This document shows positions 10,939 through 52,325 of a stretch of DNA of 64,000 nt, in pieces (within the stretch, counting starts at the first letter, position 1; each line of letters opens with the position of its first letter). Below the pieces are notes generated by a model. That model did not search any database. It had not been told where the DNA came from and was given only the letters and a program-made list of their open reading frames with translations. Made by a program: the position numbers and the translations under genes. Origin of the DNA: Actinomycetota bacterium (GTDB taxonomy: Bacteria; Actinomycetota; Actinomycetes; Streptosporangiales; Streptosporangiaceae); contig JAJPIV010000112.1 of assembly GCA_021324595.1 (NCBI GenBank), forward strand, positions 1 through 64,000. The letters are read 5' to 3'.

Positions 10939-11001
10939 CCCCGGCCGCGCCCGCCGGTGGTACCTTTCTGCCGGATCGGGAAGCCCACGCGAAGGAGCAG
11001 G

Positions 11002-34195: not shown

Positions 34196-34996
34196 ATGCC
34201 GAACGAGCGGGAGCAGCTGCGGCGGATCTTCGACTCCGCGGCGGACCGGTACCAGCGTGCCCGCCCCGACTACCCCGACCGGCTCTACGAGGACCTCATC
34301 CTGCTCTGCGGGCTCTCCCGCAGCGCGCGGCTGCTCGAGGTGGGCTGCGCGACGGGCAAGGCGACCCTGCCGCTGGCGCGGCGCGGGTTCGCGATCACCG
34401 CGCTGGACATCGGCTCGCGGCTAGCCGCCGCGGCGCGGCGCAACCTCGCGCCGTTCCCGCAGGTCGAGGTGGTGGAGGCCGACTTCGAGACCTGGGCCCC
34501 GGCCGACGGCTCGCGGTTCGACCTCGTCTACGCAGCGACGGCCTGGCACTGGATCGACCCCTCGGTGCGCTACCGGCGTGCCTTCGGCCTGCTGCGGCCC
34601 GGCGGGTACCTGGCGTTCTGGCTGGCCGCCCACGTGTACCCGGAGGACGGCGACCCGTTCTTCCGCGAGATCCAGGACATCTACGACGAGATCGGCGAGG
34701 GCCGCGCGGACGCCGGGCACGGCTGGCCCACGCCCGGTGAGCTCGGCGACGACCGCGCCGAGATCGAGGAGAGCAAGCTGTTCGAGGTCGTCGGGATCCG
34801 GCAGTACGACTGGGAGACCCGCTACAGCGCGCAGCGGTACATCGAGCTGCTGGAGACGTTCTCCGGCCACCTCGCGATGGAGAAGTGGAAGCGGGACCGG
34901 CTCTACGCCGAGATCCGCCGCCGGGTCGCGCTGCGGCCGGAACCGGTCCTGCGGCGGCACTGGGGCGCGATCCTGCACGTCGCCCGCCGCGCCTAG
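34196..34996 (+). CDS. Class I SAM-dependent methyltransferase
   Basis: The protein has 266 residues. Motif I is RLLEVGCATGKATLPLARRG (~43-62), motif II region ITALDIGSRLAAAARRNLAP, acidic motif VEADFETW, and YAATAWHWIDPSVRYR, as in methyltransf_25/11 proteins of the type that starts RxxFDxxAxxYxxARPxYPxxL (here IFDSAADRYQRARPDYPDRL). ATG at 34196 has GGAGG four bases upstream. Substrate unknown. It stands alone, just left of the IS256 remnant that begins the mobile region. Confidence 0.85.
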   Translation: MPNEREQLRRIFDSAADRYQRARPDYPDRLYEDLILLCGLSRSARLLEVGCATGKATLPLARRGFAITALDIGSRLAAAARRNLAPFPQVEVVEADFETWAPADGSRFDLVYAATAWHWIDPSVRYRRAFGLLRPGGYLAFWLAAHVYPEDGDPFFREIQDIYDEIGEGRADAGHGWPTPGELGDDRAEIEESKLFEVVGIRQYDWETRYSAQRYIELLETFSGHLAMEKWKRDRLYAEIRRRVALRPEPVLRRHWGAILHVARRA

Positions 34997-35045
34997 CGGC
35001 CAGGGGAACAAGGCCGGAGCCGGAACGGGACCGTTGCCGGTCCGG

Positions 35046-35590
35046 TCACGCTGGGCAGGTCGGCGCGTCGCGGTGAGGCACTCCGCGGCGCACATCTTCC
35101 GCGGCGGGCAGCGCCCTCGGCTGAGGACGCTCCCGGCCAGAGGCCCCCGCCAGGTCCCATGTAGCGGCGGGCTTCGGTCCATTCGTCGTTCTGCTCCAGG
35201 AACACGGCGCCGGCGAGGCGGGTGACAGCCTCGCCGCCGGGGAAGATGCCAGCCCCGCCGGCTCTGCGGCGCAGTTCCCGGTTGAGCCGCTCCTTGGGGT
35301 TGGACGACCAGGCTTGGCGCCAGATCTCGCGTGGCTCGGCGGTGAAGGCGAGCAGGTCATCATGGGCGTCGGGCAGGCGCGTGGCGGCGGGGATCTTGCC
35401 CAGCAGCGCGTCCACGACCGGGCCGAACTGCGCGTCGACCTCGGCGGTGCGGGCTGGCCGGAGGTGGTCCGTACCAGCGTGGCCACCCAGGCTGGCTGGA
35501 CCTGGCGACTTTGGCCGGAAGATCGCGAAGGCGGCGGGTGCGGCATCTTTGCCAGCTCGCGCCTCGGAGACCCGCGACTCCGCGACGCCA
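35046..35590 (-). pseudogene. IS256 (Mutator) family transposase, truncated and frameshifted
   Basis: The C-terminal part reads TAEVDAQFGPVVDALLGKIP, EPREIWRQAWSSNPKERLNR, ELRRRAGGAGIFPGGEAVTR, LAGAVFLEQNDEWTEARRYM, in perfect order for IS256-family transposases. The start of the match shifts frame near QVQPAWVATLVRTT, and a further shift falls after RRYMG, where the tail continues as LAGASGRERPQ to the stop at 35046. Most of the N-terminal half, with two of the catalytic acidic residues, is absent. It marks the left edge of the VapBC/DISARM region. Confidence 0.8.
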
Positions 35591-35780
35591 TCCCGGCCAG
35601 TTTGTACCGGCCGAGGGGCCTCCAGCCCTATTCTCCAGCTGGTTTCCCGGCGGTACCCACAGGTCCGCCAGGACTCTGCGGGATGGGGCGTCGCCAGCAT
35701 CCGCCAGTCAGCCCGCTGTAACGGCACGTCAATCCTGAGGGAGCGCCGTCAGCGCCAGTCAGCACCTCGACGTTGATCTT
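35591..35780. other. Intergenic, nothing recognised
   Basis: About 190 bases between the transposase fragment and the VapBC operator. No gene is supported; it may be the rest of the insertion or its flank. Confidence 0.4.
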
Positions 35781-35801
35781 CGATGTAGGATATGTACATC
35801 G
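35781..35801. promoter_or_regulatory. Inverted repeat at the vapBC promoter
   Basis: CGATGTA (35781-35787) and TACATCG (35795-35801) form a perfect 7-bp inverted repeat with a 7-base spacer. It lies 23 bases before the antitoxin start and covers a possible -10 (TAGGAT). Toxin-antitoxin complexes usually repress their own promoter through such a site. Confidence 0.6.
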
Positions 35802-35824
35802 TCAACATGAGACTGGGGGGACCG

Positions 35825-36046
35825 GTGGCGCTGACACAGATAGATCTCGACGAGGACGCTCTAGCCGAGGCCATGCGGCTGTCTGGGGCGAAGACGAAGA
35901 AGGAGACCGTTAACCTGGCCCTGCGCGAATACGCGGCCCGGCACCGACGGATCGAGGCGCTGGAGCATTACGCGGCGCTCGCGGCGAGCTGGGACTATCA
36001 GGACTGGGAGCGGCGCCGGGCGGAGGAGAAGGATCCCGCGGCGTGA
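35825..36046 (+). CDS. vapB: VapB-family antitoxin
   Basis: The protein has 73 residues from a GTG at 35825 behind GGGGGG. ATG starts at 35792 or 35807 are also possible, but they lie in or close to the operator. The ribbon-helix-helix signature of VapB (PF09957) is clear: ALTQIDLDEDALAEAMRLSG, AKTKKETVNLALREYAAR. The C-terminal acidic and aromatic tail (ASWDYQDWERRRAEEKD) would wrap around the toxin. Its stop overlaps the toxin start (GTGA), the normal arrangement for antitoxin-first modules. Confidence 0.85.
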   Translation: MALTQIDLDEDALAEAMRLSGAKTKKETVNLALREYAARHRRIEALEHYAALAASWDYQDWERRRAEEKDPAA

Positions 36047-36465
36047 TCCGCTTCCTGCTGGATTCCTCGGCGCTATGGCGCGTGCTGCGAGACGCCGAAC
36101 TGCGGGCGGCATGGGCGCCGGTGGTCTCCGACGGCGCGGTCGGCTCCTGTCATCCCCAGCGAGTCGAGTTTCGCCGGTCAGCCCGCAATCTCGACGAGTA
36201 CGAACAGATGACGGAGATGTTCGCCGCGCTCTACCCGGACGTCCCGCTACCCAAGACCACCTGGCGTTGGATGGAATCAGCCCAGTACCGGCTCCTGCGC
36301 AACGGCGCCCACCGCGCCATGTCCGCAGTCGACCTGCTGATCTGCGCCACCGCCGCCCAGCACGACCTCACCGTGCTGCACGACGACAACGACTTCAGCG
36401 CCGCCGCCCGCTACCTGCCCGACCTCCGCGAGCGCAACGTCCGCGACACCCCCAAGATCGACTAA
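36043..36465 (+). CDS. vapC: VapC-family PIN-domain toxin
   Basis: The protein has 140 residues. PIN-domain acidic residues are visible: FLLDSSAL (Asp ~7), QRVEFRRSAR (Glu ~42), MSAVDLLICATAAQ (Asp ~98) and LHDDNDFSAAARY (Asp ~117). The family cleaves tRNA or rRNA when freed from VapB. GTG at 36043 overlaps the antitoxin stop. The pair probably stabilises this region; it is a frequent companion of defence islands. Confidence 0.88.
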   Translation: MIRFLLDSSALWRVLRDAELRAAWAPVVSDGAVGSCHPQRVEFRRSARNLDEYEQMTEMFAALYPDVPLPKTTWRWMESAQYRLLRNGAHRAMSAVDLLICATAAQHDLTVLHDDNDFSAAARYLPDLRERNVRDTPKID

Positions 36466-36968: not shown

Positions 36969-37721
36969 TCAGAGCCGCCGTAGCTGGCCGAGTGACCAGA
37001 GCGCATGGACGTGGTCGCGGATGGCCCGGGGCTGCGGGCCGCCGCGGATGAGGATGCCGCATTCGAGGTTGGCCTCCATGGCCCGGCTGGTCAGGTTGGC
37101 GCTGGTGACCAGGGCGATCTCGTCGTCCACGACAATGGCCTTCGCGTGCAGCGACGCGCCCGGGGGCCGCCGGCCGGCGGGCCAGGACAGCCGGGTCGCG
37201 GGGATGCCTGGGAACGGGAGGTCCGGGCCGTGGTAGCCGGGATTGTCCGCGTGCCGTTCGGCGACCAGCACGATCTCGACACGGCGGCGCGCCGCACCGG
37301 CAAGCGCCTCCTCCAGCGCGGGTTCGGCCTGGGTCGCGTAGCTGACCAGCAGGATCTCGTGGCGGGCCGCGCTGACCAGCCCGGTCACGGTGGCGGCGGT
37401 GAGCCGGCTCGTGGAGATCCCGGACTCCGGCCCGGTCCAGACCACGTCCAGGGACTGGCGGGCACGGGCCCGGCGGACCGCGGCGGCCGCGCCCAGCAAC
37501 GCCCCCGCCGCGAAGGCGGGCACCTGGCCGCCGAGCTGTGCGATCACCTGATCGCAGGCATCGCGGACCGGGCCAGGGGCTTGCGCGCGCAGGGCATGCA
37601 CGGCGCCGGCCCCGCTGGCCGCCGCGGCGGCGAGCCGGAGCACGTCAGCCTCGGGCAGCCGTTCGGCGATCCGGCTGGCCCAGTCCACGTCGGAGGGCCG
37701 GGCGGCGTGCCGCGCGGTCAT
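36969..37721 (-). CDS. drmC: DISARM protein DrmC (phospholipase D-like)
   Basis: The protein has 250 residues. A single HKD motif is visible: HAKAIVVDDEIALVTSANLT (~190-209), then RAMEANLECGILI. The N-terminal helical part contains ERLPEADVLRLAAAAASGAG. DrmC is the PLD-superfamily member of DISARM; published work, as I recall, found it dispensable for protection in one system. The ATG at 37721 overlaps the drmB stop (ATGA). It is the last gene of the operon, ending three bases from the ISAs1 remnant. Confidence 0.88.
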   Translation of the reverse strand: MTARHAARPSDVDWASRIAERLPEADVLRLAAAAASGAGAVHALRAQAPGPVRDACDQVIAQLGGQVPAFAAGALLGAAAAVRRARARQSLDVVWTGPESGISTSRLTAATVTGLVSAARHEILLVSYATQAEPALEEALAGAARRRVEIVLVAERHADNPGYHGPDLPFPGIPATRLSWPAGRRPPGASLHAKAIVVDDEIALVTSANLTSRAMEANLECGILIRGGPQPRAIRDHVHALWSLGQLRRL

Positions 37722-39574
37722 CGCGGGAACGCCAGGCCGTCACCGGTGAGGTCCACCAGCACGGCCCGGTCCAGCCAGCGGTTGTTGTTCTCGCAACTGG
37801 TCTCGGAGGCGAACAGGCAGGCGTGGCAGGCGGCGGCGTGCAGGTCGGCGGAGGGGTCGATCGGCACGTGCTCGGCGCACAGCGGGTCGGACGAGCAGCA
37901 CTCGCCGTCCTGGAAGGCCTGGTCCAGCAGCCGCCGGAGGTAGCGTGGCTGGCCGAGGGCGACCAGGCCGCCGAGGGTGCCCTCGCTGTCACTGGCGGCG
38001 GTAGACAGCAGCACCCCGGCGGTGGGCGCCTGGGGCGTGCCGATGTAGAGGCGCTCGCGGATGCTGGCGGAGGAGTACCCGCATTCCAGTGCGACCTGGC
38101 GGATCAGCATGTGGCTGAGGGTGTGGATCAGCGTGAGCCGCGCGACCGGGAAGGCGCCCGGTGCCGCCCGGCCCCGGTCGTGGCGCCAGCGGCGGAACGC
38201 CTCCTCCAGCGCCACGATCCGCTCGTGGCCGGCGACGCGGGCTGCCCACCGGGCTACCTCACTCTCCCGCAGCTCCAGGAAGATGCCCTCGCCCCGCTGC
38301 TCCACGGCGGGCACCCAGGTCGGGGCCGCGCGGGCGAGCGGGACCCGCTGGACCGGCTGCAGATCGTCGCGGTCGGGGGCGGCGAGCCGGGTGAACCCGG
38401 CCAGTGCGCGGACCTCGCGCAGCCGGGACACCAGCACCACCTGGTCGAGCAGCCGGTCGTAGCCCTTGGGGGTGGGGGTGGGGACGGCGCGGAAGTCTGG
38501 GTCCTGCCGGTCGGTGGTGGGCCGCGACAGCAGCCGCCATTCGGCATCGAGCAGCCCGGCCGGGGCCGCGGCGGCCGGGCCGCCGGCGGCCCGGAGCTTC
38601 TCGATGCACGCCCACACCTCCTCGATCGGGGTCCCGCGCAGGCCGCGCAGCGCGTCCATCCCGTCGATGATCGCCTGGGCGACGCCGGGATCGTGCTGGG
38701 CGCCGAGGATCTCCCAGTGCGCGCTCACCTGGTCCTCGACGCTTTGGCCCTGCGGCAGGTGCAGGGCGCTGGCGGTGACGCTGAACCACAGGTTGCTGGC
38801 GCCGAGCACGATCAGGTGCAGCGGTTTCCCGCAGGGGCTGAACCGCTGCAGGTGCGGGTGGCGGCCGCGGCAGGCGGGCAGCTTCTCCCAGCCGTCCCGG
38901 CCGGCCGCGTCCTGGATGTTGCGGGACGCGCCGCATTCGGTGCAGCGCACCGTGACCCGCGGTCCCAGCGTGCTGGCGGCATCCCGCATCGTGAGCTGCG
39001 GGCCGTCGCACGGCCCGGCGGCCTGCGCGTGGACGTACTCGACGTAGGGGAAGTCGTCCAGGTGCCCGGCCTCGCACACGACCAGGAACCGGGCCGGGAC
39101 GCAGGCGCGCCTGTTGGCGTTGCGGGTGGTGGCCTGCCGCGGGCAGCGGGCGTGGACGAACTTGGCCAGGTCGGGGCGGCGGCCGAAGCGGTGGACGAGT
39201 TCGAACTGGCCGGGCGGGTCGAGGGGGCCGAGCCGGTGGCAGCGGGGGCAGCGCACCCAGCGCGGGAACGGGGTCACCGGCACCCCGGTCCGGCTCCACG
39301 GGTCGTCGCGTTCGGCGGGATCCCAGGGTGCGCTGCGCAGCGCCCGGACCTGGTCCCCGAGTACCTCACGGATCCTGGCCAGCAGCCGGGGCTCGTCGAT
39401 GGTGTCCTGCCGTTCCGGGCTCCACGCGTCAAGGCCGCGCACGATCACGCTCATCGACGGCAGGTCGATCACCGAGCCCACCCCGAACGTGGTGATGAGC
39501 TGGCTCGGCCGGGCCTGGCCGATCCTGGTCGGATCCCGGCGCGGGCCCGCGGCCGCGCCGCCGGCCAGCCTCAC
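37718..39574 (-). CDS. drmB: DISARM protein DrmB (DUF1998 domain)
   Basis: The protein has 618 residues. An early zinc pair RCPRCHRLG (~110) and a C-terminal DUF1998 region with GECCSSDPLC, HACLFASETSCENNNRWLDR (~560-605) are typical of DrmB. Other landmarks are ITTFGVGSVIDLPSMSVIV (~27) and RLTLIHTLSHMLIRQVALE (~470). DrmB forms a complex with the DrmA helicase that engages foreign DNA. GTG at 39574 overlaps the drmA stop (GTGA). An upstream extension of the frame to 39802 is Arg/Gly-rich and overlaps drmA, so I reject it. Confidence 0.9.
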   Translation of the reverse strand: MRLAGGAAAGPRRDPTRIGQARPSQLITTFGVGSVIDLPSMSVIVRGLDAWSPERQDTIDEPRLLARIREVLGDQVRALRSAPWDPAERDDPWSRTGVPVTPFPRWVRCPRCHRLGPLDPPGQFELVHRFGRRPDLAKFVHARCPRQATTRNANRRACVPARFLVVCEAGHLDDFPYVEYVHAQAAGPCDGPQLTMRDAASTLGPRVTVRCTECGASRNIQDAAGRDGWEKLPACRGRHPHLQRFSPCGKPLHLIVLGASNLWFSVTASALHLPQGQSVEDQVSAHWEILGAQHDPGVAQAIIDGMDALRGLRGTPIEEVWACIEKLRAAGGPAAAAPAGLLDAEWRLLSRPTTDRQDPDFRAVPTPTPKGYDRLLDQVVLVSRLREVRALAGFTRLAAPDRDDLQPVQRVPLARAAPTWVPAVEQRGEGIFLELRESEVARWAARVAGHERIVALEEAFRRWRHDRGRAAPGAFPVARLTLIHTLSHMLIRQVALECGYSSASIRERLYIGTPQAPTAGVLLSTAASDSEGTLGGLVALGQPRYLRRLLDQAFQDGECCSSDPLCAEHVPIDPSADLHAAACHACLFASETSCENNNRWLDRAVLVDLTGDGLAFPR

Positions 39575-42500
39575 CGCGGCCCCCCCTGCCCGCCGGGCGC
39601 GCCCGCGGCCCCGGCGGCGCCACCGGTGCCAGAGCCACCTCCAGCGCGCGCCGCCCGGCCGCGCCGTCCCCCGCCCGCGCCCGGTGCGCGCTCGTAACTC
39701 CAGGACGGGGCGTCCGCCAGGCTCCGGTCGGGCCGGTCGAGCTGGAGGGTGATCTCCGCCTCGACCTCCCGCAGGCTGTTCGGCACCGACCACAGGCCCC
39801 ACGGCCCCGCGTCCGGGTCACGGAGCAGCCCGGTCACGTCCGCCGCCTCCTGGTAGCCGAGCCTGCCCGTGGCGACGGTCTTGCGCAGGCCATGCCAGCT
39901 ATCGAGCCGGTGCTGAAGCTGCTGGCGGGCCGCCAGCGCCTGCCCGGTGTCGTGGGTCACCTGTTCGGCGCGGTGCTGCACCCCGTCCAGCAGCCCGGTG
40001 ACCGCGGGCCCGGTGAGCGGGATGGTGTGCGCGGCGGTGTTGGGCAGCGCGGCCGTCCCCGAGTGCCGCATCGCCGTCACCAGCACCCCGGTCAGGCCAC
40101 GGTCCAGCGCCCGGTCGCTGAACGGGGTCGTGGTGAGCCCCTCGATCCGCAGCCCGAACGTCGCGTGGCCGTACCCGAACGACTCCAGGTGCGCCAGGTC
40201 ACGCGGCCGGCTCCACTGGTAGATGGTGACCACCAGGCCGGGCCGGCGCCGGTCCCGGCCGATCCGGGAGGTGACCTGGATGTACTCGGCGGTGTTCTTC
40301 GGCTGCCCGGTCACCACCATGAGCCCCAGCCGCGGCACGTCCACGCCAACCTGCAGCATGCTGGTGGCCAGCAGCACGTCCAGCGGCTGCGGCCGGTCCC
40401 GCTCCCTGGCCGCGGCGGGGTCGGCGCGGAACCGTTCCAGCGCCGCGGTGGAATCGAACTCCGGGTCGAACGGGCGTTCCAGGCCGGCCAGCGTGCCCGC
40501 GATCTGGCTGCTGGGCATCCGGCTGGTCAGCTCGCTCACCACCGGGCGGCGCCGCCGGGTGCGGACCTGCTGGCTGGCCAGCCGGTCGGCGACGTCGTCG
40601 TCCATCAGCCGGCGCATCCCGGCGAGCTCCCGGGTGGAGGTGAAGTAGTCGACCACCGTCATGTACGGGTCGGCGGCCTCGCCGCAGCGGTCCAGCAGGT
40701 ACTGGGCGTGCTCCATCAGGGCCGCGACCACCCGGATCTCCACCGACTTCAGCCGCTCGCCCGGCGCCAGCACGCCACGGTACCGCCGCCCGGGGCTGCC
40801 CGGCCCCGGCCGGACCATCCGGGAGAAGAACGTGTCCCCGGCGTCGAGCACCTGCGGCGGGAACACCGCCAGCCCCCGGGCGAACACCTGCCCCACCTGG
40901 TCCCGGGCCCGCCGCACCGTGGCGGTCGAGGCCACCAGGACCGGCCGGACCACCTGGCCGTTCACCGGCCACGTGCACAGCCGGTCGATGGCGGTCTCGT
41001 ACAGGCCGACCATCGACCCGAGCGCGTCGCTGATCAGGTGCAGCTCGTCCTGGATGATCAGGTCCGGCGGGCGCAGCCGCATCGCCGGCACCGGCACCGC
41101 CGCGGGCAGGCCGCCGGCCGCCGGGTGCCGTGTCCGGCAGAACGACTCGAACTCCGGGTTCTGCCAGCCATGACGCGGGCATTCGCTGGCGACCAGGCCG
41201 AACACCGGGGCGGTGGCGGCCCGCCATGGCAACTGGGCGAGCTTGTCCACGGTGGCGATGATCAGCGCGGGCGTGAGCCGGTAGATCTCCTCGTCCACGG
41301 TCAGCACCGGCAGCCCCTCGCCGGGGGAGCGCCGCGGGGTGAACAGGCAGTTGCCTTCCGGGTCGCTGCAATACAGCAGCACCCGCCGCCGCAGGTCGTG
41401 GGTGACCAGGTCCCGGCTGCCCGACAGCGGCGACCCGCACCAGGGGCACGCGGCCAGTTGCAGCGGCCCCCCCAGCGACTGCTCCGCCTGCCGTGCCTCG
41501 GTCACCTGCCGGTAGGCGTCCTCGTAGCTGTTGGGCGTGACGCTCGCGCCGACCCACAGGCCCACCCGGAACGGGGTGGTCCCCCACCGGCGGTCCCCGG
41601 CGTCCAGCCGCTCGCGGCGCAGCGACTCGCACGCGCACACCAGCGCGGCGGCCCGCTGGAACTGCTGGGCGGTCAGCAGCCGCAGCGTGTACCGCATCAG
41701 CACCGCCACGCCCCGGCTCCCGTCCCGGGCATCCGCTCCCTCGCCGACCGTGCCCTGCAGGCGGCGGATCGCGAACGTGTAGGCGGTCAGCCCCAGGTAC
41801 GCCTCGGTCTTGCCGCCGCCGGTGGGGAAGAACAGCAACTGCACCTGCGCGTCCTGCGCGCCGCGCCGGGCGTCGGGGTGGGCGGGGTCGGTGAGCCCCG
41901 GCAGGCACAGCAGCACGAACGCGAGCTGGAACGGCCGCCAGGACCGGTACTCGGCCCGGTCGAACCGGCGCAGCAGCCCGGTGACATCCGCGGCCGGGTC
42001 GGCGAGGCGGGCGCGCACCACTTCGCTGCGCACCCGCTGCAAGGCCATCGCCTGGTTGGCGAACCGGAACGCCTCCCGCGCGATCCCGTCGTCGCGCAGC
42101 AGGTCGATCGCCCGGTCCAGCCGGCCGACCACCGCCCGCGCGGTGGCCAGGGCCTGCTCCCCGGCCGGGGCGTACCGCGCCACCTCCGGGTCGCTGCCCA
42201 TCCGGCTCTCTTGCTCCTCCAGCCAGGCCCGGTACCCGGCGGCCAGCGGGCGCAGCGCCCGCTCCAGCTCGTCACGGGCCAGCTCCGGGCTACCCAGCCG
42301 GGCCATGTCCAGCACCACGCCGGGCACGCTGCCCGGCTCCACCAGCGGGACCTCCGCCGCCGGGAAACACGTGGTGGTCAGCCGCCAGGCCCGGGCCTCC
42401 CCGTCGCGGACCTCGGCGTCCACCGCGCACTGGCGGCCGTGCGCGTACTCGCGGTGGGCGCGGTGCAGCAGCGCCAGGTGCAGCAGCTCATCGTCGTAGC

Positions 42501-43242
42501 TGCTGGGCGGGTTGCCCAGCTCCGGGTCGTTGTGCCCGACGAAGATTGCGCTGCGGCCATCGGCCGCGGTCACCGTCAGCCGCGCCTGGTACACCCGCGC
42601 CGTGTCCGGCAGCGAGGTGACCGGCCGCTGGGCGTTCACCAAGGCCAGCTCCACCACCCGCCGCCGGCCCCGGTGCCGCACGGTGTAGCGGACCACCACC
42701 CCCTCCTGCCGGGGGTCCGGTACCAGGCCGCCGGAGCCCTCGGCATCGAGCGGCACCGTCACCGGTCCCCCGGCCGGGCGGCGCTTCCACACCGTCCGCG
42801 GCCGGCCCTGCTCGGTCTCGTGGACCTCCGAGGGCACCCGCTCGTACCGGCCCCACTCCGCGCTCACCGCCACGGCGCCCACATCCCCGGGCACGGTGAA
42901 CGACAGGCCGATCGCCGAGGCGGCCAGGCTCCCGGCGCGGACCGCCGCCTCGCTCTCCACGTCGGTGTCGCCGGCGTCGGCTGCCGCGGCGACCTCGCGC
43001 TCCACCAGCGCCGGATCGTCTCCCGTGCCCGCTGCATCGGCCGTCGCCGGGTCGACCGGCGCGTCCCGGGGGACCAGGCGCCCCAGCAGGTACCGCTCCG
43101 CCGGCGACGTGCCCGGCGGCAGTTCCTCCTCTGGCCCATCCCAGGGGCCCAGCAGGTCCCGCTCCAGCCGGTCCTCCAGCTCCGCGCGCACCTCCAACGA
43201 GGTGACCGGCCCGTCCGGGCGCCCGGCGCCCGCCTCGGTCAC
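39571..43242 (-). CDS. drmA: DISARM protein DrmA (superfamily 2 helicase)
   Basis: The protein has 1223 residues. Helicase motifs are Walker A FFPTGGGKTEAYL (~475), DExH as IIQDELHLISDALG (~732), and the motif V/VI region LLATSMLQVGVDVPRLGLMV, TSRIGRDRRRPG (~960-995). DrmA with DrmB recognises unmodified DNA, including 5' overhangs, and unwinds or blocks it. GTG at 43242 overlaps the drmMI stop (GTGA). The first ~100 residues are acidic and alanine-rich (VEREVAAAADAGDTDVESEA). Confidence 0.92.
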   Translation of the reverse strand: MTEAGAGRPDGPVTSLEVRAELEDRLERDLLGPWDGPEEELPPGTSPAERYLLGRLVPRDAPVDPATADAAGTGDDPALVEREVAAAADAGDTDVESEAAVRAGSLAASAIGLSFTVPGDVGAVAVSAEWGRYERVPSEVHETEQGRPRTVWKRRPAGGPVTVPLDAEGSGGLVPDPRQEGVVVRYTVRHRGRRRVVELALVNAQRPVTSLPDTARVYQARLTVTAADGRSAIFVGHNDPELGNPPSSYDDELLHLALLHRAHREYAHGRQCAVDAEVRDGEARAWRLTTTCFPAAEVPLVEPGSVPGVVLDMARLGSPELARDELERALRPLAAGYRAWLEEQESRMGSDPEVARYAPAGEQALATARAVVGRLDRAIDLLRDDGIAREAFRFANQAMALQRVRSEVVRARLADPAADVTGLLRRFDRAEYRSWRPFQLAFVLLCLPGLTDPAHPDARRGAQDAQVQLLFFPTGGGKTEAYLGLTAYTFAIRRLQGTVGEGADARDGSRGVAVLMRYTLRLLTAQQFQRAAALVCACESLRRERLDAGDRRWGTTPFRVGLWVGASVTPNSYEDAYRQVTEARQAEQSLGGPLQLAACPWCGSPLSGSRDLVTHDLRRRVLLYCSDPEGNCLFTPRRSPGEGLPVLTVDEEIYRLTPALIIATVDKLAQLPWRAATAPVFGLVASECPRHGWQNPEFESFCRTRHPAAGGLPAAVPVPAMRLRPPDLIIQDELHLISDALGSMVGLYETAIDRLCTWPVNGQVVRPVLVASTATVRRARDQVGQVFARGLAVFPPQVLDAGDTFFSRMVRPGPGSPGRRYRGVLAPGERLKSVEIRVVAALMEHAQYLLDRCGEAADPYMTVVDYFTSTRELAGMRRLMDDDVADRLASQQVRTRRRRPVVSELTSRMPSSQIAGTLAGLERPFDPEFDSTAALERFRADPAAARERDRPQPLDVLLATSMLQVGVDVPRLGLMVVTGQPKNTAEYIQVTSRIGRDRRRPGLVVTIYQWSRPRDLAHLESFGYGHATFGLRIEGLTTTPFSDRALDRGLTGVLVTAMRHSGTAALPNTAAHTIPLTGPAVTGLLDGVQHRAEQVTHDTGQALAARQQLQHRLDSWHGLRKTVATGRLGYQEAADVTGLLRDPDAGPWGLWSVPNSLREVEAEITLQLDRPDRSLADAPSWSYERAPGAGGGRRGRAARAGGGSGTGGAAGAAGAPGGQGGPR

Positions 43243-46200
43243 GGGTTCTCCTCCCGCCACCGCCGCAGGTTCTCCTCCAGCAGCCGGTCCAGCAACTCGA
43301 ACCGGGCCTCCGCGCTCACCGTCCACCGCACCCCGATCTTCGTCGGGTGGTGCCCGATCTTCAGGTCCAGGTCCGCCCACCCGTACGCCCGCAGCACCGC
43401 CTCGTCGACCGCCACGTGAATGTCCCGAAGTTCCTGAACGCCAGCATCGTGGCAATCGGGATCGTGCACCTGGTTGTACGTCGTGGTCAGCCCCCACCAC
43501 CGCCCCAGCATCACCTCCCGCCGCACCCGGTCCAGCTCCTCCCCCAGCTCATGCAGTTCCGCCGTCGGCTGCGGCCTCGGCAGCGTCAGGAAGACATCTG
43601 AGGGTGAGTAATTGATAGAAGTCCCAAGCGTCGAGGTGTAACGGATAGTCCAGGCAATGTGCGCGCTGGATGCCAACACCGCAAGCTGGTCGAGAGCGTC
43701 GGTCGCGAAGATGACCACTTTCTCCGAGTACACGGGTCCGGTTGGTACGCACACCGGTGCCAGCGAGCTGGACACCCGGGCGATCGCCAGCACGTGATCG
43801 AGCCCCTGGATCGCCTCTTCAAGTCCTTGACGGTTCTGCCAGAACTTCCACCATTCATAGACCATTCGCGGATACTTGGCCACGTTCTTTCGTTGCCGCT
43901 CTGGGCGTACCTTGCGTTCCACAATCGCCAAGACGTCCGGATACTTTTGACAGCGTTCGAGCGACCATTCTTGGAAGTTGATGACCCACCGGCTGGCCGA
44001 GCAGTCCGGCCGCTGGTTGAGGTCCCTGCCGATCACATACGGCTGGAGCACGTCGGCGTTGCGCGGGTCGCGGGCGATCAGCTCCCGCGCCTGCTCGGGC
44101 GCCAGGACAAACCCCGTGCCGAGCACATAGGAGCCGATGAACGCGATACCGTCGTTCTCGCGCAGCCGTCTGGGGCGTTCCCGGACCCGCCCGTACGGCT
44201 GGAGGTCGGGGCCGATGGCAGGGACTGCCTCGCCGTCCAGCCAGTGCGCGGCCGCCTTAGCGAGAGGTGCCCGGCTGGCCCAGGTCTCCACGATCTGCAG
44301 GCTCGCGCTCGCGGTCGGCCACGGATGCGGGGACCGCCCGGCGCGGATGGCCAGCCCGCGGCCGGCCGCCTGAACCAGGCCGACTTCCAGGGTGTCTCCC
44401 TCGATGAGGGTGTTGACCGTGACGAAGCCAAGCTGGCCGCGCGCGGACAGCAGGCGCTGCGCGCGGAGCACGAACCGGGCCGCCAGATCGGCGCTACCAC
44501 GAACGGTGTTGCCGTCCCAGCGCTGGAGCCATCCGAGGTAGTCGTCACCCAGCGTGCCGGATATCTTCTTGCCCCCTAGAAATGGCGGGTTACCGATGAT
44601 GGCGTCGAAGCCTGGCTGCGGGGTGTCGGCGAACACCTCGGGGAAGGCCAGCGGCCAGTGCACGGCCGTTCGTTCCGCAGTGCCTTCCGGGCGCCCGGCT
44701 TGCAGCAGCTCACCGGCCCAGTCCCGGAGGCTGCCCGTGCCGTCGGCCATGGCGTTGGCGACCCGTACCTCCAGGCCCAGGAACGCGGCGTCGGACTTCT
44801 TCCCCTTCTGCCCGGCGCAGGCCAGGCCGGCCGCGGTGATAGCGTCGGCGACCGCAGCCAGGGTGCCCGACAGGCCGTTGGCCTCGGTGAGCAGCCGGGC
44901 CTTGTGCTCCACGTCGCGGATCGTGGTCACCGGGGTGGCGGTGATCCGCCGCCGCAGGCCCGCGGCGCGCAGCAGCAGGGTGCGCCAGCCGGAGGTGAAG
45001 TCCAGCGTCCCGGCGTGCAGGCGGCGCCCGGCGGCCGGGTCCATGTGCAGCTCCTCAAGCTGGTCCAGGCTGGTGAGGCCGAGCAGGCTGTCGCCGCTGA
45101 CCAGCCGGTCGTCGAGGAACCCGAACGGGCGCTCGCGGTCCATGGTGATCAGCCAGAGCGACAGCTTGGCCATCTCGACCGCGAGCGGGTTGATGTCCAC
45201 CCCGTACAGGCAGTGCTCGGCGACCTGGCGGCGGGCTTCCAGCAGCACCTGCTCGGCCTCGGCGTCCGCCCCGGCCCGGTAACTGTCCTGGTGCAGCCGG
45301 GCGGCGAGGGCGTCGGCGCGGCCTTCGGCGCGCCAGGCTTCGACCAGCCGGTAGGCGAGGTAGCGGCAGGCGGCGACCAGGAACGCGCCGGAGCCCATGG
45401 CGATGTCGGCGACGCGGAGCTGGAGGATCTCGGGGGAGGGCCGGAGCTGCCAGGCGGACTCGTCGGCGGTGTCGAGCGGGCCGGGCCGGTAGACCAGCGG
45501 CTCCAGCGCCCCGGCCGCGACCTCCTCGGCCAGCGAGCGGGGCGTGTAGTGGGTGCCGGTGGCGGCGCGGCGGCTGGAGCGGGACACGTACCTGCCACCG
45601 GGCAGCGTGATCGCGGGCAGGCCGCGCTCGTCGTAGCGCAGCACCCCGGCCAGCGGTGCGATCGCTGCGGCCAGCCCCGGGTCGGCGCCGGTGACCCGGG
45701 CGATGGCGGCGCGCTGGTCGGCCGTGGCGCCGCCGGCGAGCCGGGCCTTCACCGTGGCGGCAGGCCAGCCGGTGCGCTCGGCCAGCCAGGTGACCAGCGT
45801 CCCGTCGTCTTGGCGGGCTGCCGCCTCCGCCAGGCTGGCCTCGCTGTCGTGCTTGATCTTGCGCGGCCACCGGGCGGGCCGGTGCAGGCCGAGCACGACC
45901 TCGCCGGCGGTGCGGATTTCCAGTTCGAGCAGGCCCTCGTAGACGTAGCCGATCTGTTCCACGTCCAGGGCGCGGAAGCTGAGCCGCCTCCGCTCCCCGC
46001 CGATCTGCACGTACTGGACGGCGCGCAGCATCCGCAGCACCGTCCGGTCGTCCACCGCGGGCGGCCGCGCCGCGGCGGCGGGCTCACCTGGCCGATGGCC
46101 CTCCAGCCACGGGTACCGGCCGGGGTCGAACAGGCCGCCGCCGTAGGCGGGCAGCCGCAGGTCCTCGTGCGCCACCCCGGCGTGGACGGCCCGGGTGAGG

Positions 46201-47339
46201 GCGAGCAGCCGGTGCCAGGCGGCGGTGCGGTGCTCCAGGGCCTGCTCCCCGGCCAGGCTGGCCTGCTGCTCAAGCTGCTCCACGAGCTGGCCGACGCCGT
46301 ACCCGGTGACGTAGAGGTCATCGTCGCTGGGCAGCAGCCGCCGTTCCTCGGCGAACAGCAGGAACACGACCCGCATCATCACCGTGACCACGCCGCTGAA
46401 GAACTCGTCGTCGTCCACCCCGGCGAGCAGCCGCCCGGACGATTCCCGGTCCAGCCCGTCCAGCGTGACGGCGAGCATCTCGACCGCCTCCCGGACCTGG
46501 CGGCCCAGGGTTTCGGTGACCTCCTCCTGCCGTTGCAGGCTTTCGCGCAGCAGCGCGGGCAGCCGGTCGCCCGGCGCGACGGCCAGGAACCGGGCCCGGT
46601 GCAGCAGCGCGGCCAGGGCCCGCAGCGAGGCGGGGTCCTCGCTGAACCAGCCCGCATCCCACACCGCCGCGCCGGTCGTGCCGCCGCGCGGCGCCCACAC
46701 CAGCGCCCACCAGCGACCGTCGGTGGCCACGCCGACCGGCACGTCGCGGGCGCGCAGCAGCACGGCGAGCCGCTCGACCCCGCTGGCGGCCCAGCCGCCG
46801 GTGGTCGTGCGGGCCAGCGGGTGCGTGCCCCACGGCAGGTAGATGCCAAGCAGCCGCCACGGCCCGCGCCCGCCGTCGGGCGCACCGGGCAGGCCAGCGG
46901 CCGCGCCTTCCTCAGCGTCGCCGCTCTCCTCATCGCCCTCTGCGGGGCCGTCGTCCTCGCCAGCCCCGCCGCCAGTGTCGTCCCCGCTGCTGGCGTCGTC
47001 GGCGTAGAAGCCGAAATCGGGGCGGACCAGCAGGCCGTGCTCGGGCACCGGCTCGGCCAGGTGCTCCGGCATGTCCGCGTCGATGCGCAGGTGATGCTGC
47101 CAGTCGAGCACGTCGCGCAGCACGGCGGCGATCAGCGCATGCCGGCTGGCGCCGCGGCTGTCCAGCATGTCCGCGGCCAGCGCCCGGACTCTTGCCCGCT
47201 GCCCGGCCGGGACCGGGGGCAGCCCGCCGGGGAAGGCCCGCTGGACGACCGGCAGCGTCAGGAACGGCCCCGAGGTTTGCAGCAGCTCCAGCCAGGCATG
47301 CGGCCCGCCGGGGGCGCCGCGGGCCCGCCGCGGGCTCAC
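43239..47339 (-). CDS. drmMI: DISARM class 1 DNA adenine methyltransferase DrmMI
   Basis: The protein has 1366 residues. SAM motif I is ADIAMGSGAFLVAACR (~645), followed by VDINPLAVEMAKLSLWL (~715). The catalytic motif is IIGNPPFLGG (~918, NPPF type, N6-adenine). A large N-terminal part (~1-600) precedes the methylase core, and a specificity region (~1000-1300) follows it. DrmMI marks the host DNA so that DrmAB does not attack it. GTG at 47339 overlaps the drmD stop. Residues ~1125-1245 (43600-43960) are coded at 53-60 % GC in lines I counted, against ~73 % in drmA, suggesting an exchanged recognition domain. Confidence 0.9.
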   Translation of the reverse strand: MSPRRARGAPGGPHAWLELLQTSGPFLTLPVVQRAFPGGLPPVPAGQRARVRALAADMLDSRGASRHALIAAVLRDVLDWQHHLRIDADMPEHLAEPVPEHGLLVRPDFGFYADDASSGDDTGGGAGEDDGPAEGDEESGDAEEGAAAGLPGAPDGGRGPWRLLGIYLPWGTHPLARTTTGGWAASGVERLAVLLRARDVPVGVATDGRWWALVWAPRGGTTGAAVWDAGWFSEDPASLRALAALLHRARFLAVAPGDRLPALLRESLQRQEEVTETLGRQVREAVEMLAVTLDGLDRESSGRLLAGVDDDEFFSGVVTVMMRVVFLLFAEERRLLPSDDDLYVTGYGVGQLVEQLEQQASLAGEQALEHRTAAWHRLLALTRAVHAGVAHEDLRLPAYGGGLFDPGRYPWLEGHRPGEPAAAARPPAVDDRTVLRMLRAVQYVQIGGERRRLSFRALDVEQIGYVYEGLLELEIRTAGEVVLGLHRPARWPRKIKHDSEASLAEAAARQDDGTLVTWLAERTGWPAATVKARLAGGATADQRAAIARVTGADPGLAAAIAPLAGVLRYDERGLPAITLPGGRYVSRSSRRAATGTHYTPRSLAEEVAAGALEPLVYRPGPLDTADESAWQLRPSPEILQLRVADIAMGSGAFLVAACRYLAYRLVEAWRAEGRADALAARLHQDSYRAGADAEAEQVLLEARRQVAEHCLYGVDINPLAVEMAKLSLWLITMDRERPFGFLDDRLVSGDSLLGLTSLDQLEELHMDPAAGRRLHAGTLDFTSGWRTLLLRAAGLRRRITATPVTTIRDVEHKARLLTEANGLSGTLAAVADAITAAGLACAGQKGKKSDAAFLGLEVRVANAMADGTGSLRDWAGELLQAGRPEGTAERTAVHWPLAFPEVFADTPQPGFDAIIGNPPFLGGKKISGTLGDDYLGWLQRWDGNTVRGSADLAARFVLRAQRLLSARGQLGFVTVNTLIEGDTLEVGLVQAAGRGLAIRAGRSPHPWPTASASLQIVETWASRAPLAKAAAHWLDGEAVPAIGPDLQPYGRVRERPRRLRENDGIAFIGSYVLGTGFVLAPEQARELIARDPRNADVLQPYVIGRDLNQRPDCSASRWVINFQEWSLERCQKYPDVLAIVERKVRPERQRKNVAKYPRMVYEWWKFWQNRQGLEEAIQGLDHVLAIARVSSSLAPVCVPTGPVYSEKVVIFATDALDQLAVLASSAHIAWTIRYTSTLGTSINYSPSDVFLTLPRPQPTAELHELGEELDRVRREVMLGRWWGLTTTYNQVHDPDCHDAGVQELRDIHVAVDEAVLRAYGWADLDLKIGHHPTKIGVRWTVSAEARFELLDRLLEENLRRWREENP

Positions 47340-50300
47340 CGGCCGCCACCGCCCTCGGGCACGCACACCGCGACCGCGAACGGGAACACCAGCTCGCGCA
47401 CCCCGGCGTACCGGTGCCCGACCGCGGCCAGCTCCCGGGCCCGCTCCTCGTCCAGCCCGTCCAGCCGCGCCTGCCACGCCGCCCGGTCCCGGTCCAGTTG
47501 CGCCCGTTCGGCGGCATCGAGGTCGTCGAAGGTGAGCTGGACCGGCGCGGGGCCCTGCAGGGCCGATTCCAGGGTGAGCCGGAGCTGATCGAACACCGCC
47601 CCGGTGCGCCTGATCTCCTCGTCCCGGCGGCGGGCCAGGTCGCGCTCCAGGGCGGCGACCCGCTCGGCAGCGCGGGCCTGGACATCGGCCGCGAGCGGGG
47701 CCTCCAGCTCTGGCCAGCGGTCCACCACGAGCTGCCGTTCTGCCGCGGATGCCTGCCTGCAGGACTGCGGCTCCAGGGCAGTTTCCACCGCACCGCGCAG
47801 CCGCGCGTACCGGGGCTGCTCCAGCTCCAGCCGGCGGGACCGGCCCTCCGGCGGCACGACGCGGGCGGCCAGCATCACCTCCTCATGCAGCCGCCTGCCG
47901 TCGGCGCCCACGATCACCAGCCGGGCGAACACCGCCACCAGCACCCCGTCGATGCCGGCGCCGGCCGGCGGGGTGAACCGCACCGCCGCGGCCCGGTGCA
48001 GCGGGAGGCGCCCGCCCCACAGCGCGCTGCGCAGCAGCCGGGTCGCCTGGGCCACCAGCGGGTGCTCCAGGTGAGCGAGCACCACATCGTCGCGCCCGGC
48101 GGCCAGCCGCGGGTCGAACGTCAGCGGCCGGGGCTCGCCGGTCAGCGGGTCCGCCAGCCCGGTGACGGTACGCTCCCACCCGGCCCGCAGGTCCGGCGGC
48201 GCGACCAGGCCGCTGACCGGGCCGTCCAGGCCGGCCAGCGGCGGCTGGCCCGCCAGCGCCAGGCCGGTGTCCACCACCCGGCGGACGTTGGCCGGGGCCA
48301 CGTGCAGAGTGTGCACGCTGTCATCGAGCTGCCGGCGGAGCCTGCGGACCTGCTCCCGCACGTCTGCTTCGGCTTTCAGCGCGCTCGTTGACGGCTTGGG
48401 GCTGACGGCCAGCGGGTCCGCCAGCACCGGGCGGCCCAGCATCCGCGCCTCGACCGCGTAGGCCAGGACCGGGTTGACACTGCCCAGGTCTTCCCTCGCG
48501 ACCGCGATCTTCTGCGCGACGCGGGACAGGTACTCCAGGTCCGCCTCATACGACCCGGGCGGCGCGTCGTGCCAGCTCGCGCCCGCGAAGTGGGCCACGT
48601 CCACCTGGTGTTCCTGGAGGTAGCGGTCCAGGCGCCCGATCCGCTGCTCCAGCCGGTTGGGGTTGAACGGGATGTCGTAGTGGATCATGTGGTGGCAGTG
48701 ACGCTGCAGGTCGATCCCCTCGCTGGCGGCGTCGGTCGCCAGCAGTATCCGCACCGGGTCCCGTTCCGGGGCGGCCTGGAACGCGGCCTTGAGCCGCTCA
48801 CGGCGGGCCTCGTCCATCCCGCCATGCAGCAGGCCGAGCCGCTCCCCGCCCAGGCCGCGCGCCTCCAGCAGGCCCGCCAGCCAGGTCTGGGTCGCCCGGT
48901 ACTCGGTGAACACCACGACCCGCTGGTCGTTCCAGGTGCCGCCGGGCCTGCAGATCCGGTCCAGCTCCGCGATCAGGGCCTTGGCCTTGCTGTCGGCGGG
49001 CTCGGCGTGGCGGTGCGCCCAGGCGGCGAGCTGGTCCAGCAGCGCCTGCTCCATCACCGACGACTCGGGCTGGAGTTCCGCGATCCGGTCGAGCAGCTCC
49101 CGCTCGGGGTCGCTGCCGGGCTCCTCATCGGAGGGGTCAGTGTCCCAGTCCAGCGCCTCGGCCAGCCAGGAGGGAACCTCGCCGTCATCGTCGCCGGGGC
49201 CGGCCACGCGGCTGGCCGGCCGGCTCCCGGTGCCCCGGCTGTCCAGGTAGCCATCGAGGGTGGCGGCGAACGCGGCCGGGGAGGAGAACAGCCGCTTCTT
49301 CAGCAGCAGCGTGATCAGGTCGGTGGCCCGGGCGCGCGCCCGGCCCGGCCGGCTCCGTTGCAGCGTGGCGTACTGGTCGATGAGCGCGTGCGCCGCCCGC
49401 TCGGCGTCGGTGTAGGCGATGTCGATCGCGCGGTTGCGCCGCCCCGGGAACCGGGGCGAGCCGTCGGGTTCGCGGATGTCGCCCTTGAGGCGGCGCACCA
49501 TCACCTGGCGCACCAGGGCCTCATCGGGATCCTGGCCGCGGACGAACCGCTGCGGGTCGAGCATCGCCAGCAGCGCCTGCCACGACTCCGGGTACCCGTT
49601 GTGCGGGGTCGCCGACAAGAACAGCCGGTGCTGGCTGTACTCCCCCAGCCGGCGCACCGCCTGGGTCTGCTTGCTGTCCACCGGGTACCCGGTGGCCCGC
49701 GGCGGGGCCGGGGGTGCGCAGTGGTGTGCCTCGTCCACCACCAGCAGGTCGATATAGCCCGGGTACCGGGCCTGCGGGGTCAGCACCTCATCCAGCAGCC
49801 GCTGCACCCGGGGGGTGCGCAGCCACTGCAGGCTGATCACCGTCCGCGGGTACACCGCGAACGGGTTCGCCTCCAGGCCGTGGGTGCGCCGCAGCTCCCG
49901 CAGCGCGGCGGCGTCCAGGATCGTGAACTCCAGGCCGAACTTCTCGGCCAACTCCTCGCGCCACTTCAGCGTCAGCGACGCCGGGCAGACCACCAGCACC
50001 CGCCGGGCCCGGTGCCGCAGCAGCATCTCCTGGATCACCAGGCCGGCCTCGACCGTCTTCCCCAGCCCCACGTCGTCGGCGATCAGCAGGTTCACCCGCG
50101 GCATCGCCAGCGCCCGTGCCACCGGCTCCAGCTGGTACTCCTCGATCCGCACCCCGGACCGGAACGGCGCCTGCAACGTGCGGGTATCCGCGCTCGCCAC
50201 CGTCCCCCACCGGACCGCGTCCAAGAACGCGCCCAGCCGCTGCGGGTCATCCCAGCCGTCCCCGGTGACCTCGGGAAGCTTGGTCGCCGGGACGACCTCC

Positions 50301-50515
50301 CGCCCCGGCTCCACCTCCCAGACCAGCGTCAGCTCCTCCCCCAGGTCGTCGTCGCTGACGCTCGTCAACTGCACCAGGGTCCGGCCGGGCAGGTGGGTCG
50401 CGGCCAGCTCATCGACCGGCTGGCTGCTCTGCTTGACCGCCGCCACCACCCACTGCTGACCGCGCACCCGCACCAGCTGCCCAGCCTCCGGCACCTCCAG
50501 CGTGGCATCGAGCAT
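47336..50515 (-). CDS. drmD: DISARM class 1 protein DrmD (SNF2-family helicase)
   Basis: The protein has 1059 residues. ATG at 50515 is chosen because GGAGGG lies seven bases upstream; an in-frame start at 50551 lacks one. It is a SNF2/RapA-type ATPase: Walker A ADDVGLGKTVEAG (~147), VVDEAHH (~260), LSATPHNG, and the C-terminal helicase motifs LLATDAASEGIDLQ (~590) and QRIGRLDRY (~625). DrmD defines class 1 DISARM, opposite to DrmMII in class 2. It is the first gene of the leftward operon; the 214-bp gap upstream should hold the promoter. Confidence 0.92.
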   Translation of the reverse strand: MLDATLEVPEAGQLVRVRGQQWVVAAVKQSSQPVDELAATHLPGRTLVQLTSVSDDDLGEELTLVWEVEPGREVVPATKLPEVTGDGWDDPQRLGAFLDAVRWGTVASADTRTLQAPFRSGVRIEEYQLEPVARALAMPRVNLLIADDVGLGKTVEAGLVIQEMLLRHRARRVLVVCPASLTLKWREELAEKFGLEFTILDAAALRELRRTHGLEANPFAVYPRTVISLQWLRTPRVQRLLDEVLTPQARYPGYIDLLVVDEAHHCAPPAPPRATGYPVDSKQTQAVRRLGEYSQHRLFLSATPHNGYPESWQALLAMLDPQRFVRGQDPDEALVRQVMVRRLKGDIREPDGSPRFPGRRNRAIDIAYTDAERAAHALIDQYATLQRSRPGRARARATDLITLLLKKRLFSSPAAFAATLDGYLDSRGTGSRPASRVAGPGDDDGEVPSWLAEALDWDTDPSDEEPGSDPERELLDRIAELQPESSVMEQALLDQLAAWAHRHAEPADSKAKALIAELDRICRPGGTWNDQRVVVFTEYRATQTWLAGLLEARGLGGERLGLLHGGMDEARRERLKAAFQAAPERDPVRILLATDAASEGIDLQRHCHHMIHYDIPFNPNRLEQRIGRLDRYLQEHQVDVAHFAGASWHDAPPGSYEADLEYLSRVAQKIAVAREDLGSVNPVLAYAVEARMLGRPVLADPLAVSPKPSTSALKAEADVREQVRRLRRQLDDSVHTLHVAPANVRRVVDTGLALAGQPPLAGLDGPVSGLVAPPDLRAGWERTVTGLADPLTGEPRPLTFDPRLAAGRDDVVLAHLEHPLVAQATRLLRSALWGGRLPLHRAAAVRFTPPAGAGIDGVLVAVFARLVIVGADGRRLHEEVMLAARVVPPEGRSRRLELEQPRYARLRGAVETALEPQSCRQASAAERQLVVDRWPELEAPLAADVQARAAERVAALERDLARRRDEEIRRTGAVFDQLRLTLESALQGPAPVQLTFDDLDAAERAQLDRDRAAWQARLDGLDEERARELAAVGHRYAGVRELVFPFAVAVCVPEGGGGR

Positions 50516-50729: not shown

Positions 50730-51635
50730 TTAGGGCCGAGCCGACGCGTTCCGGTCGGGCTCGGTGCGATCGGGGGGTTCGAAGTAGCGTCGGTAGACCT
50801 GGGAAGCCGTTTCGCCTTCGTAGATCAGCTTGTCGTCTACTCGCATGGCGAAGTAGCGAGTCCAGATCGTCCAGATCTCCTGCCACCATTCGGAGCCGGG
50901 CTTGAGTTCCTTGATGGGAAGACCGACTTTGCGCGCCTCGGCAGCCCCGATCACCGCCGAATGCACTCGCGGATCGGTGATCAGCCTCTCAGCAACTGCC
51001 TCGATCAGCGCGTCCATTCTCTCTCCCGTACGGCGCGGATTGCTCTCGATGGCCTGACGGGCGATCTCCTTGGTCTGCCCAAGCGCAGATTTCGCGAATT
51101 GGTAGAGCGTGGCATCGACGTTGCCCATGCCGAGCAGAGCGGAATGTAGCGCGTAGGTGCCGGACCGCTTGTGCACGTCGTCCAGTGCATCGTCGACGGC
51201 GGCGATCACCTCCTTGGCGCTGACATAGCCCCGCTCCGGTACGAGCACCTGGGGATCGATCGGGCCGAGATCAGATGGCGGTCCCATGATGATCTCATCG
51301 GCGCCCAGAGCGAAGATCGTTGCAGCGCTCTTGGCGATGTCCGGTACCACGACGACGAACTTGGCGCAAGATGCCTGGGCCATCCGGGCCAGCCGGATCG
51401 CTATTTCGCCGTCTCCTCCTGGGGAGCGGAGCAGCAGGTGAAGCTCTTTGCTGGGATCGGCGCCATGGAGGAGTTCGGCGAAGAGCGTGATGCTATCGGG
51501 GTGGATCAGATCGATCATGACCGCCAATCGACAGTCATGATGGTCCTGGTATGCGCGAATTAGACTGCGGCGCAGGTAGCGGGCTTCGTGCTGCGCCTCG
51601 AAGAGCGGCGTGTAGCTTACCGGCCGCTCCTCCAC
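50730..51635 (-). CDS. SDH_sah-type serine protease (ClpP/SppA-like fold)
   Basis: The protein has 301 residues from a GTG at 51635. The family (PF01972, serine dehydrogenase proteinase) is recognised by FEAQHEARYLRRSLIRAYQD, LLLRSPGGDGEIAIRLARMA (~70), VVVVPDIAKSAATIFALGAD (~95-115; Ser of AKSAAT as the probable nucleophile), then GPPSDLGPIDPQV. Such proteins resemble SppA/ClpP and lack a signal peptide here. The upstream 76-aa ORF overlaps its start by 19 bases. It lies in line with and just before DISARM. Local GC (~58 % in one line counted) is below the window average. A defence link is inference. Confidence 0.82.
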   Translation of the reverse strand: MEERPVSYTPLFEAQHEARYLRRSLIRAYQDHHDCRLAVMIDLIHPDSITLFAELLHGADPSKELHLLLRSPGGDGEIAIRLARMAQASCAKFVVVVPDIAKSAATIFALGADEIIMGPPSDLGPIDPQVLVPERGYVSAKEVIAAVDDALDDVHKRSGTYALHSALLGMGNVDATLYQFAKSALGQTKEIARQAIESNPRRTGERMDALIEAVAERLITDPRVHSAVIGAAEARKVGLPIKELKPGSEWWQEIWTIWTRYFAMRVDDKLIYEGETASQVYRRYFEPPDRTEPDRNASARP

Positions 51636-51847
51636 ATTCCCGGGTGCATGCGCGGGATCCGGGCCGCTCGCGGGATCCGCTTGGACGCCCTCAGCTTGCG
51701 CCCCATCTTCCATGCCTCGACCGCGACTTCGCGCTGCTCCTCCATGGCTGCCGCCTGGTCTTCCCCCTCCTCCCCGGCGTGGTCGGCTTGCGGGATCGGC
51801 AGAGGGTTGTCGTAGTCGGGGGGCACGGTCTCCGGCAAGCGCGTCAT
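51617..51847 (-). CDS. Small hypothetical protein coupled to the SDH_sah protease
   Basis: The protein has 76 residues. ATG at 51847 follows GAGGGGAG, a strong ribosome binding site. Acidic N-terminal half (PQADHAGEEGEDQAAAMEEQ), basic C-terminal half (WKMGRKLRASKRIPRAARIP) ending in HPGMWRSGR. The last 19 bases overlap the start of the protease gene, so the protease is probably translated by coupling. No homologous family is known to me; it might be a substrate, inhibitor or adaptor of the protease (inference). Confidence 0.55.
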   Translation of the reverse strand: MTRLPETVPPDYDNPLPIPQADHAGEEGEDQAAAMEEQREVAVEAWKMGRKLRASKRIPRAARIPRMHPGMWRSGR

Positions 51848-52249
51848 GGCTGCTCCCCTCGGCTTGCATGTCTGCCATCAAGATAACCCTCGGTTGCGAC
51901 ATCACTATGCTGTATGAGCAGGGACTGCATGCCTCCCGGGTTGCCGGTGTGTTTATCTCGGCATCTGTCCTTGGGCTGTCATCGCCCTGTCAAGTGCGGA
52001 AGCGTCTCGGGTCGCGATCCACCGCCCGGTTGCCGGCCAAGCCGTTCGGCCAGTGGAAACGCTCATTCTGCGCGTAGCCGCTACAGCAGCGCTCTTGCCG
52101 ACTCGGCCTACGGCCGTCTGCCTTGCGGATCGGGTCATGGCTGACACCGTCCGCTGGCTACTCCAGACCACGCAGCCGGACCGCAAGCCTCTTGGCCCCG
52201 TCTATGGCCCCACCAGCTTGTTCGAGTCATTCGAATCATGCCTCTGACC
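51848..52249. other. Spacer between the small ORF and tRNA-Thr, nothing recognised
   Basis: About 400 bases with lower GC than the flanking chromosome. Short frames exist on both strands (for example 51953-52186 minus), but none has a ribosome binding site plus a recognisable product. The promoter of the small ORF/protease pair should lie at 51850-51910, where on the minus strand a run TATCTTGATGGC is AT-rich. If the region integrated at the tRNA, the attachment core would be at its right end. Confidence 0.4.
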
Positions 52250-52325
52250 TGGAGCCCCCTTACGGAATCGAACCGTAGACCTTCTCCTTACCATGGAGAC
52301 GCTCTGCCGACTGAGCTAAGGGGGC
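52250..52325 (-). tRNA. tRNA-Thr (anticodon GGT)
   Basis: The minus strand folds into a full cloverleaf: 7-bp acceptor stem GCCCCCT/AGGGGGC with discriminator T and an encoded CCA (52250-52252), D arm with GCTCAGTCGGCAGAGC, anticodon stem TCTCC/GGAGA around loop ATGGTAA (anticodon GGT), and T arm with GGTTCGATTCC. It is 76 bases with CCA. Its 3' end faces the DISARM region, as expected for an integration target. Confidence 0.95.

Follow-up and report, generated by a model that had tools for sequence, protein, structure and literature searches.

The question raised by this locus is whether five long minus-strand ORFs, which fill positions 36969-50515 of the window (the whole 64,000-nucleotide stretch that was analysed), form a complete and intact DISARM defence operon. 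The ORFs have GC3 values of 0.89-0.94, a coding-type signal, and the genome has a GC content of 74%. From 50515 down to 36969 the gene order is drmD-drmMI-drmA-drmB-drmC, with no gene between the five. From the gene content and the similarities described below, we consider it very highly probable that the locus is an intact class 1 (type I) DISARM operon, chromosomal as far as the contig shows.

The type I definition of PADLOC requires DrmA, DrmB, DrmC, DrmD and DrmMI and forbids drmE (PMC9252829). Profile matches to all five were found in the adjacent genes. drmE is absent between the five genes, and the scanned near neighbours had no PADLOC model match. DrmA and DrmB are encoded by separate genes, which is a hallmark of DISARM, and the whole genome contains one DrmA and one DrmB over the cut-off, both within the 64-kb window. 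Thus the complete class 1 gene set proposed in the first-pass annotation was found. The claim that the genes stand in the known class 1 order was also borne out, as the same order is seen in plasmid operons of Nocardia, Rhodococcus and Deinococcus, all of them annotated as DISARM.

The mechanically delimited ORFs overlap one another by up to 260 bases. Their 5' ends extend into the upstream gene and make them too long, and the true starts of the large ORFs lie further downstream. These starts were set by homology and junction analysis and fall exactly at the stop of the preceding gene (Table 1). Since stop and start overlap by 4 nt at each junction, the five genes almost certainly form one operon with predicted translational coupling. 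The sequence upstream of the drmD ATG at 50515 is GGCGGAGGGAACCCGG.

Table 1. Positions of the operon genes, their junctions and neighbouring features in the window
Feature	Position	Strand	Description
drmD	47336-50515	-	ATG start, 1059 aa, SNF2/RapA-like helicase; GGAGG-like site upstream
drmMI	43239-47339	-	GTG start, 1366 aa, N6-adenine methyltransferase (Eco57I/MmeI-like)
drmA	39571-43242	-	GTG start, 1223 aa, SF2 (YprA-family) helicase
drmB	37718-39574	-	GTG start, 618 aa, DUF1998/MrfA-type Zn-binding DrmA partner
drmC	36969-37721	-	ATG start, 250 aa, single-HKD phospholipase-D-type nuclease
drmD stop/drmMI start	47336-47339	-	GTGA, 4-nt overlap
drmMI stop/drmA start	43239-43242	-	GTGA, 4-nt overlap
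drmA stop/drmB start	39571-39574	-	GTGA, 4-nt overlap
drmB stop/drmC start	37718-37721	-	ATGA, 4-nt overlap
SDH-type ClpP-like serine protease gene	50730-51905	-	upstream of drmD; intact-looking
tRNA-Thr	52250-52325		beyond the SDH gene, upstream side of drmD
VapBC-like pair	35792-36465	+	84-aa antitoxin-like ORF and 140-aa PIN protein, 4-base overlap
Mutator-family transposase remnant	about 34993-35727	-	matches only the last quarter of the Pfam profile

Four of the proteins match NCBIfam models well above the curated cut-offs: DrmD with 1252.7 bits against NF038317 (cut-off 610), DrmA with 1280.6 bits against NF038325 (cut-off 950), DrmB with 654.4 bits against NF038324 (cut-off 240) and DrmC with 172.6 bits against NF038319 (cut-off 133). 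DrmD also matches the PADLOC model PDLC02621 over its full length (1264.9 bits). DrmMI has no NCBIfam model or equivalog and is assigned by PADLOC models only, the best of them being PDLC02643 (1561 bits over 11-1316 of 1347). The profile search of each protein, which had been suggested as a check, therefore returned DISARM models with full or nearly full coverage for all five. The Pfam domains are SNF2/Helicase_C in DrmD, Eco57I, MmeI_Mtase and MmeI_TRD (the target-recognition domain) in DrmMI, Helicase_C in DrmA, the MrfA Zn-binding domain in DrmB and PLD in DrmC.

DrmD and DrmMI have further hits to BREX, HmaA and DpdE models, and ARMADA systems share with class 1 DISARM a SNF2/BrxHII-like helicase and a PglX-like methylase, that is, genes of the DrmD and DrmMI types (PMC12458937). 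One possibility is that the locus is ARMADA or another YprA-helicase system and not DISARM. We regard this as extremely improbable. The DISARM models score far higher, and a DrmC-type PLD protein is present. Here the helicase has a gene of its own, separate from that of the DUF1998 part, whereas in ARMADA it is fused with DUF1998 and a Vsr nuclease, and DrmC is missing (PMC12458937). Finally, the window helicase aligns to DrmA of Serratia and not to the Vsr-fused helicase of ARMADA.

A second reading concerns DrmMI, which could be a restriction-modification enzyme of type IIG that has helicase genes as neighbours, and would then cut as well as methylate DNA. Indeed, it scores 759.9 bits against the REase_MTase_IIG models of PADLOC, and its relatives are annotated as 'type IIL MmeI'. 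However, the best model is that of DrmMI (1561 bits). The N-terminal segment RPDF...LGIYLPWG, a possible PD-(D/E)xK site, is unconserved among relatives and contains no E/D-x-K element. With the catalytic residues of the N-terminus absent and unconserved, a cutting enzyme was rejected, and the type IIG reading is very improbable. The methylase motifs DIAMGSG (pattern DxAxGSG) and NPPF of DrmMI are present and agree with those of relatives. In several other drmMI genes (L033, L034, L035, L036, L038), motif I reads DIAMGSAAF, with GSA in place of GSG, unlike the window protein.

The remaining motifs that were checked agree with those of relatives as well, in line with the earlier claim that the catalytic motifs are present. 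DrmD contains Walker A (DDVGLGKT), DEAH and QRIGR. DrmA contains PTGGGKT and DELH, the Walker A and B motifs, and SRIGR. The zinc-ligand cysteine clusters of DrmB are conserved, and the PLDc motif HxKxxxxD (HKD) of DrmC reads HAKAIVVDD.

The helicase pair can be compared with the solved DrmAB complex of Serratia sp. SCBI (7s9v, 7s9w), to which both proteins align almost end to end and with which the helicase motifs are shared. Residues 21-1170 of DrmA align to 139-1306 of 7s9v_A (E 5e-259), and residues 15-608 of DrmB to 6-606 of 7s9v_B (E 1.3e-148). V1296 of Serratia DrmA was proposed to be a sensor of DNA methylation (PMC9142583), and its equivalent is kept (LREVEAEI in the window, MREVESGV in Serratia). 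The trigger-loop region, acidic and of low complexity, is present as well but somewhat shorter than that of Serratia. The Serratia operon has an additional cytosine methylase (PMC9142583); there is none within the window operon.

The two DrmA proteins differ at the N-terminus. The N-terminus of class 1 DrmA was described as EVE-like by Bell et al. (PMC12458937). The first residue of window DrmA lies about 20 residues ahead of the equivalent of Serratia residue 139, and Serratia DrmA starts some 118 residues earlier. Judged by protein lengths and this alignment, window DrmA lacks the extension of roughly 120 residues, and no EVE-like N-terminal domain was seen. The extension is missing in most sampled actinobacterial copies too. 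It is present in Microvirga, Deinococcus, Serratia and a few actinobacterial copies, and the cyanobacterial form looks different. A profile of the extension was dropped as a test, as the cyanobacterial and the EVE-like type, which are unrelated, had both entered its seed. The class 1 assignment of the first-pass annotation thus stands on gene set, order and profiles, and departs from the reported class 1 helicases in this extension. Membership is unaffected by the missing domain because PADLOC does not require it.

By analogy with published work on Serratia, from which DNA loading, methylation sensing and phage restriction are taken, the adenine methylase DrmMI would mark host DNA. The DrmA-DrmB complex would be autoinhibited until loaded on unmodified DNA with a 5' single-stranded overhang, for example incoming or replicating phage DNA. 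Freed from autoinhibition, it would hydrolyse ATP, translocate and block phage replication. The PLD nuclease DrmC and the SNF2 translocase DrmD may be auxiliary degrading or remodelling parts. According to published DISARM work, DrmC is dispensable in the tested systems.

We infer that the operon is expressed and that it defends its host. A decayed or silent copy that has lost protection is unlikely. What speaks for it is that a consensus scan, which is uninformative for actinobacteria, detected no promoter; the same scan detected no terminator. On the other hand, the coding signal of the five genes is strong, the motifs are kept, the five protein lengths are close to those of relatives, no frame is broken and the junctions are exactly coupled. 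These frames, lengths and motifs support the intactness of the copy, which had been claimed together with normal lengths and the absence of frameshifts.

Among genomes of the same class, DrmD exceeds the family cut-off in 10 of 197, and DrmA is over its cut-off in 15 of 396 genomes of the phylum. The nearest sampled copy (L075) is that of genome G500, from another class of the phylum; the next relatives are on plasmids of Nocardia sp. NBC_01377 (NZ_CP109567) and Rhodococcus ruber Y14 (NZ_CP129903). Identities to the loci L075/L048/L049 are 69/67/65% for drmD, 64/62/58% for drmMI, 72/67/66% for drmA, 74/71/66% for drmB and 50/50/46% for drmC. All five proteins rank the relatives in the same order, which fits an operon inherited as a unit. 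The class of the nearest sampled relative and the plasmid location of the next two suggest that the operon spread horizontally.

The Nocardia and Rhodococcus plasmids carry the same five genes in the same order, annotated as DISARM, with about 46-72% identity per protein (66-67% for DrmA). Their DrmA is also without the N-terminal extension. There are 0.1-kb gaps before drmA in these operons, whereas the window copy is tighter, with its 4-nt overlaps; it also differs in being chromosomal, within the limits of the contig. The system is therefore the known class 1 DISARM, as had been claimed, and the locus is a well preserved but ordinary copy of it. As a clean, complete and tightly coupled operon of a high-GC actinobacterium, it is of use chiefly in comparisons, such as those of DrmA forms that lack the N-terminal extension. 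The picture of what DISARM is stays unchanged.

Additional genes are repeatedly found at the junction of drmMI and drmA. Where a locus has both genes, they are separated by 0.9-5 kb in about half of the cases, and this slot is filled in L033, L050, L051, L053, L071, L073, L074, L075, L079, L081 and L085; in the window it is empty. The slot contains an AlbA-like ATPase-type protein in L075 and a Mrr-like enzyme in L081; GIY-YIG, XisHI and a methyltransferase pair were found in other relatives. In L079 (genome G406), a cassette consisting of XRE-ImmA, a 174-aa protein and an SDH protease (10072-11097 and neighbours) lies on the opposite strand between drmMI and drmA of a class 1 DISARM operon.

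In some relatives the two halves of the operon stand 9-48 kb apart. The pairs of drmD and drmMI without drmA in L035, L036 and L038 were considered as a separate system. This was rejected because the same genomes carry drmA at such a distance. In L036 (99-5772) and L037, genes encoding a LmuA-like nuclease fusion, a MkoA-like SF1 helicase and a MkoB-like protein directly precede drmD. The three genes resemble a system related to Mokosh/Lamassu that has been joined to DISARM.

The gene upstream of drmD encodes an SDH-type protease. Its conserved region begins at about 51680 and keeps the AKSAAT motif, and a small ORF (51617-51847) precedes and overlaps the gene. The family is rare, being found in 3 of 246 genomes of the class at E 1e-10. 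Plasmid homologues close multiubiquitin-E2-ThiF-DUF6527 operons, whereas the window gene stands alone. No homologues of Ubl, E2 or E1 were found in the 64-kb window, and membership in such a ubiquitin-like operon was rejected. A homologue with 47-48% identity (G252, L092) adjoins genes of a type IIG-like R-M enzyme and of an XRE-ImmA protein.

SDH homologues occur in 5 of 16 DISARM-bearing genomes and in 35 of 396 overall (Fisher p about 0.009, or 0.03 without this genome; the test ignores relatedness and the counts include weak homologues). However, nearly all of the roughly 30 other DISARM loci have no such gene beside them, and the protease was rejected as a regular DISARM part. Given these features of the test and the absence of the association at nearly all loci, the gene is treated as a probable neighbour of the operon. 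It seems improbable that, at some actinobacterial DISARM loci, the protease is a true accessory that contributes a proteolytic step to the defence.

The 3' end of the tRNA-Thr gene is not repeated anywhere in the genome assembly, the window included. Therefore there is no att pair, and an island integrated at this tRNA was rejected. At the other side, the VapBC-like pair adjoins the 3' end of the operon, and metabolic genes lie further out. On another contig of the same genome (G000, C101), a gene for a HmaA-like helicase (L043, 2134-5802; 1500.9 bits against HmaA of PADLOC) is followed by one for a second SNF2 helicase (L043, 5858-8203). This pair is perhaps another defence locus.
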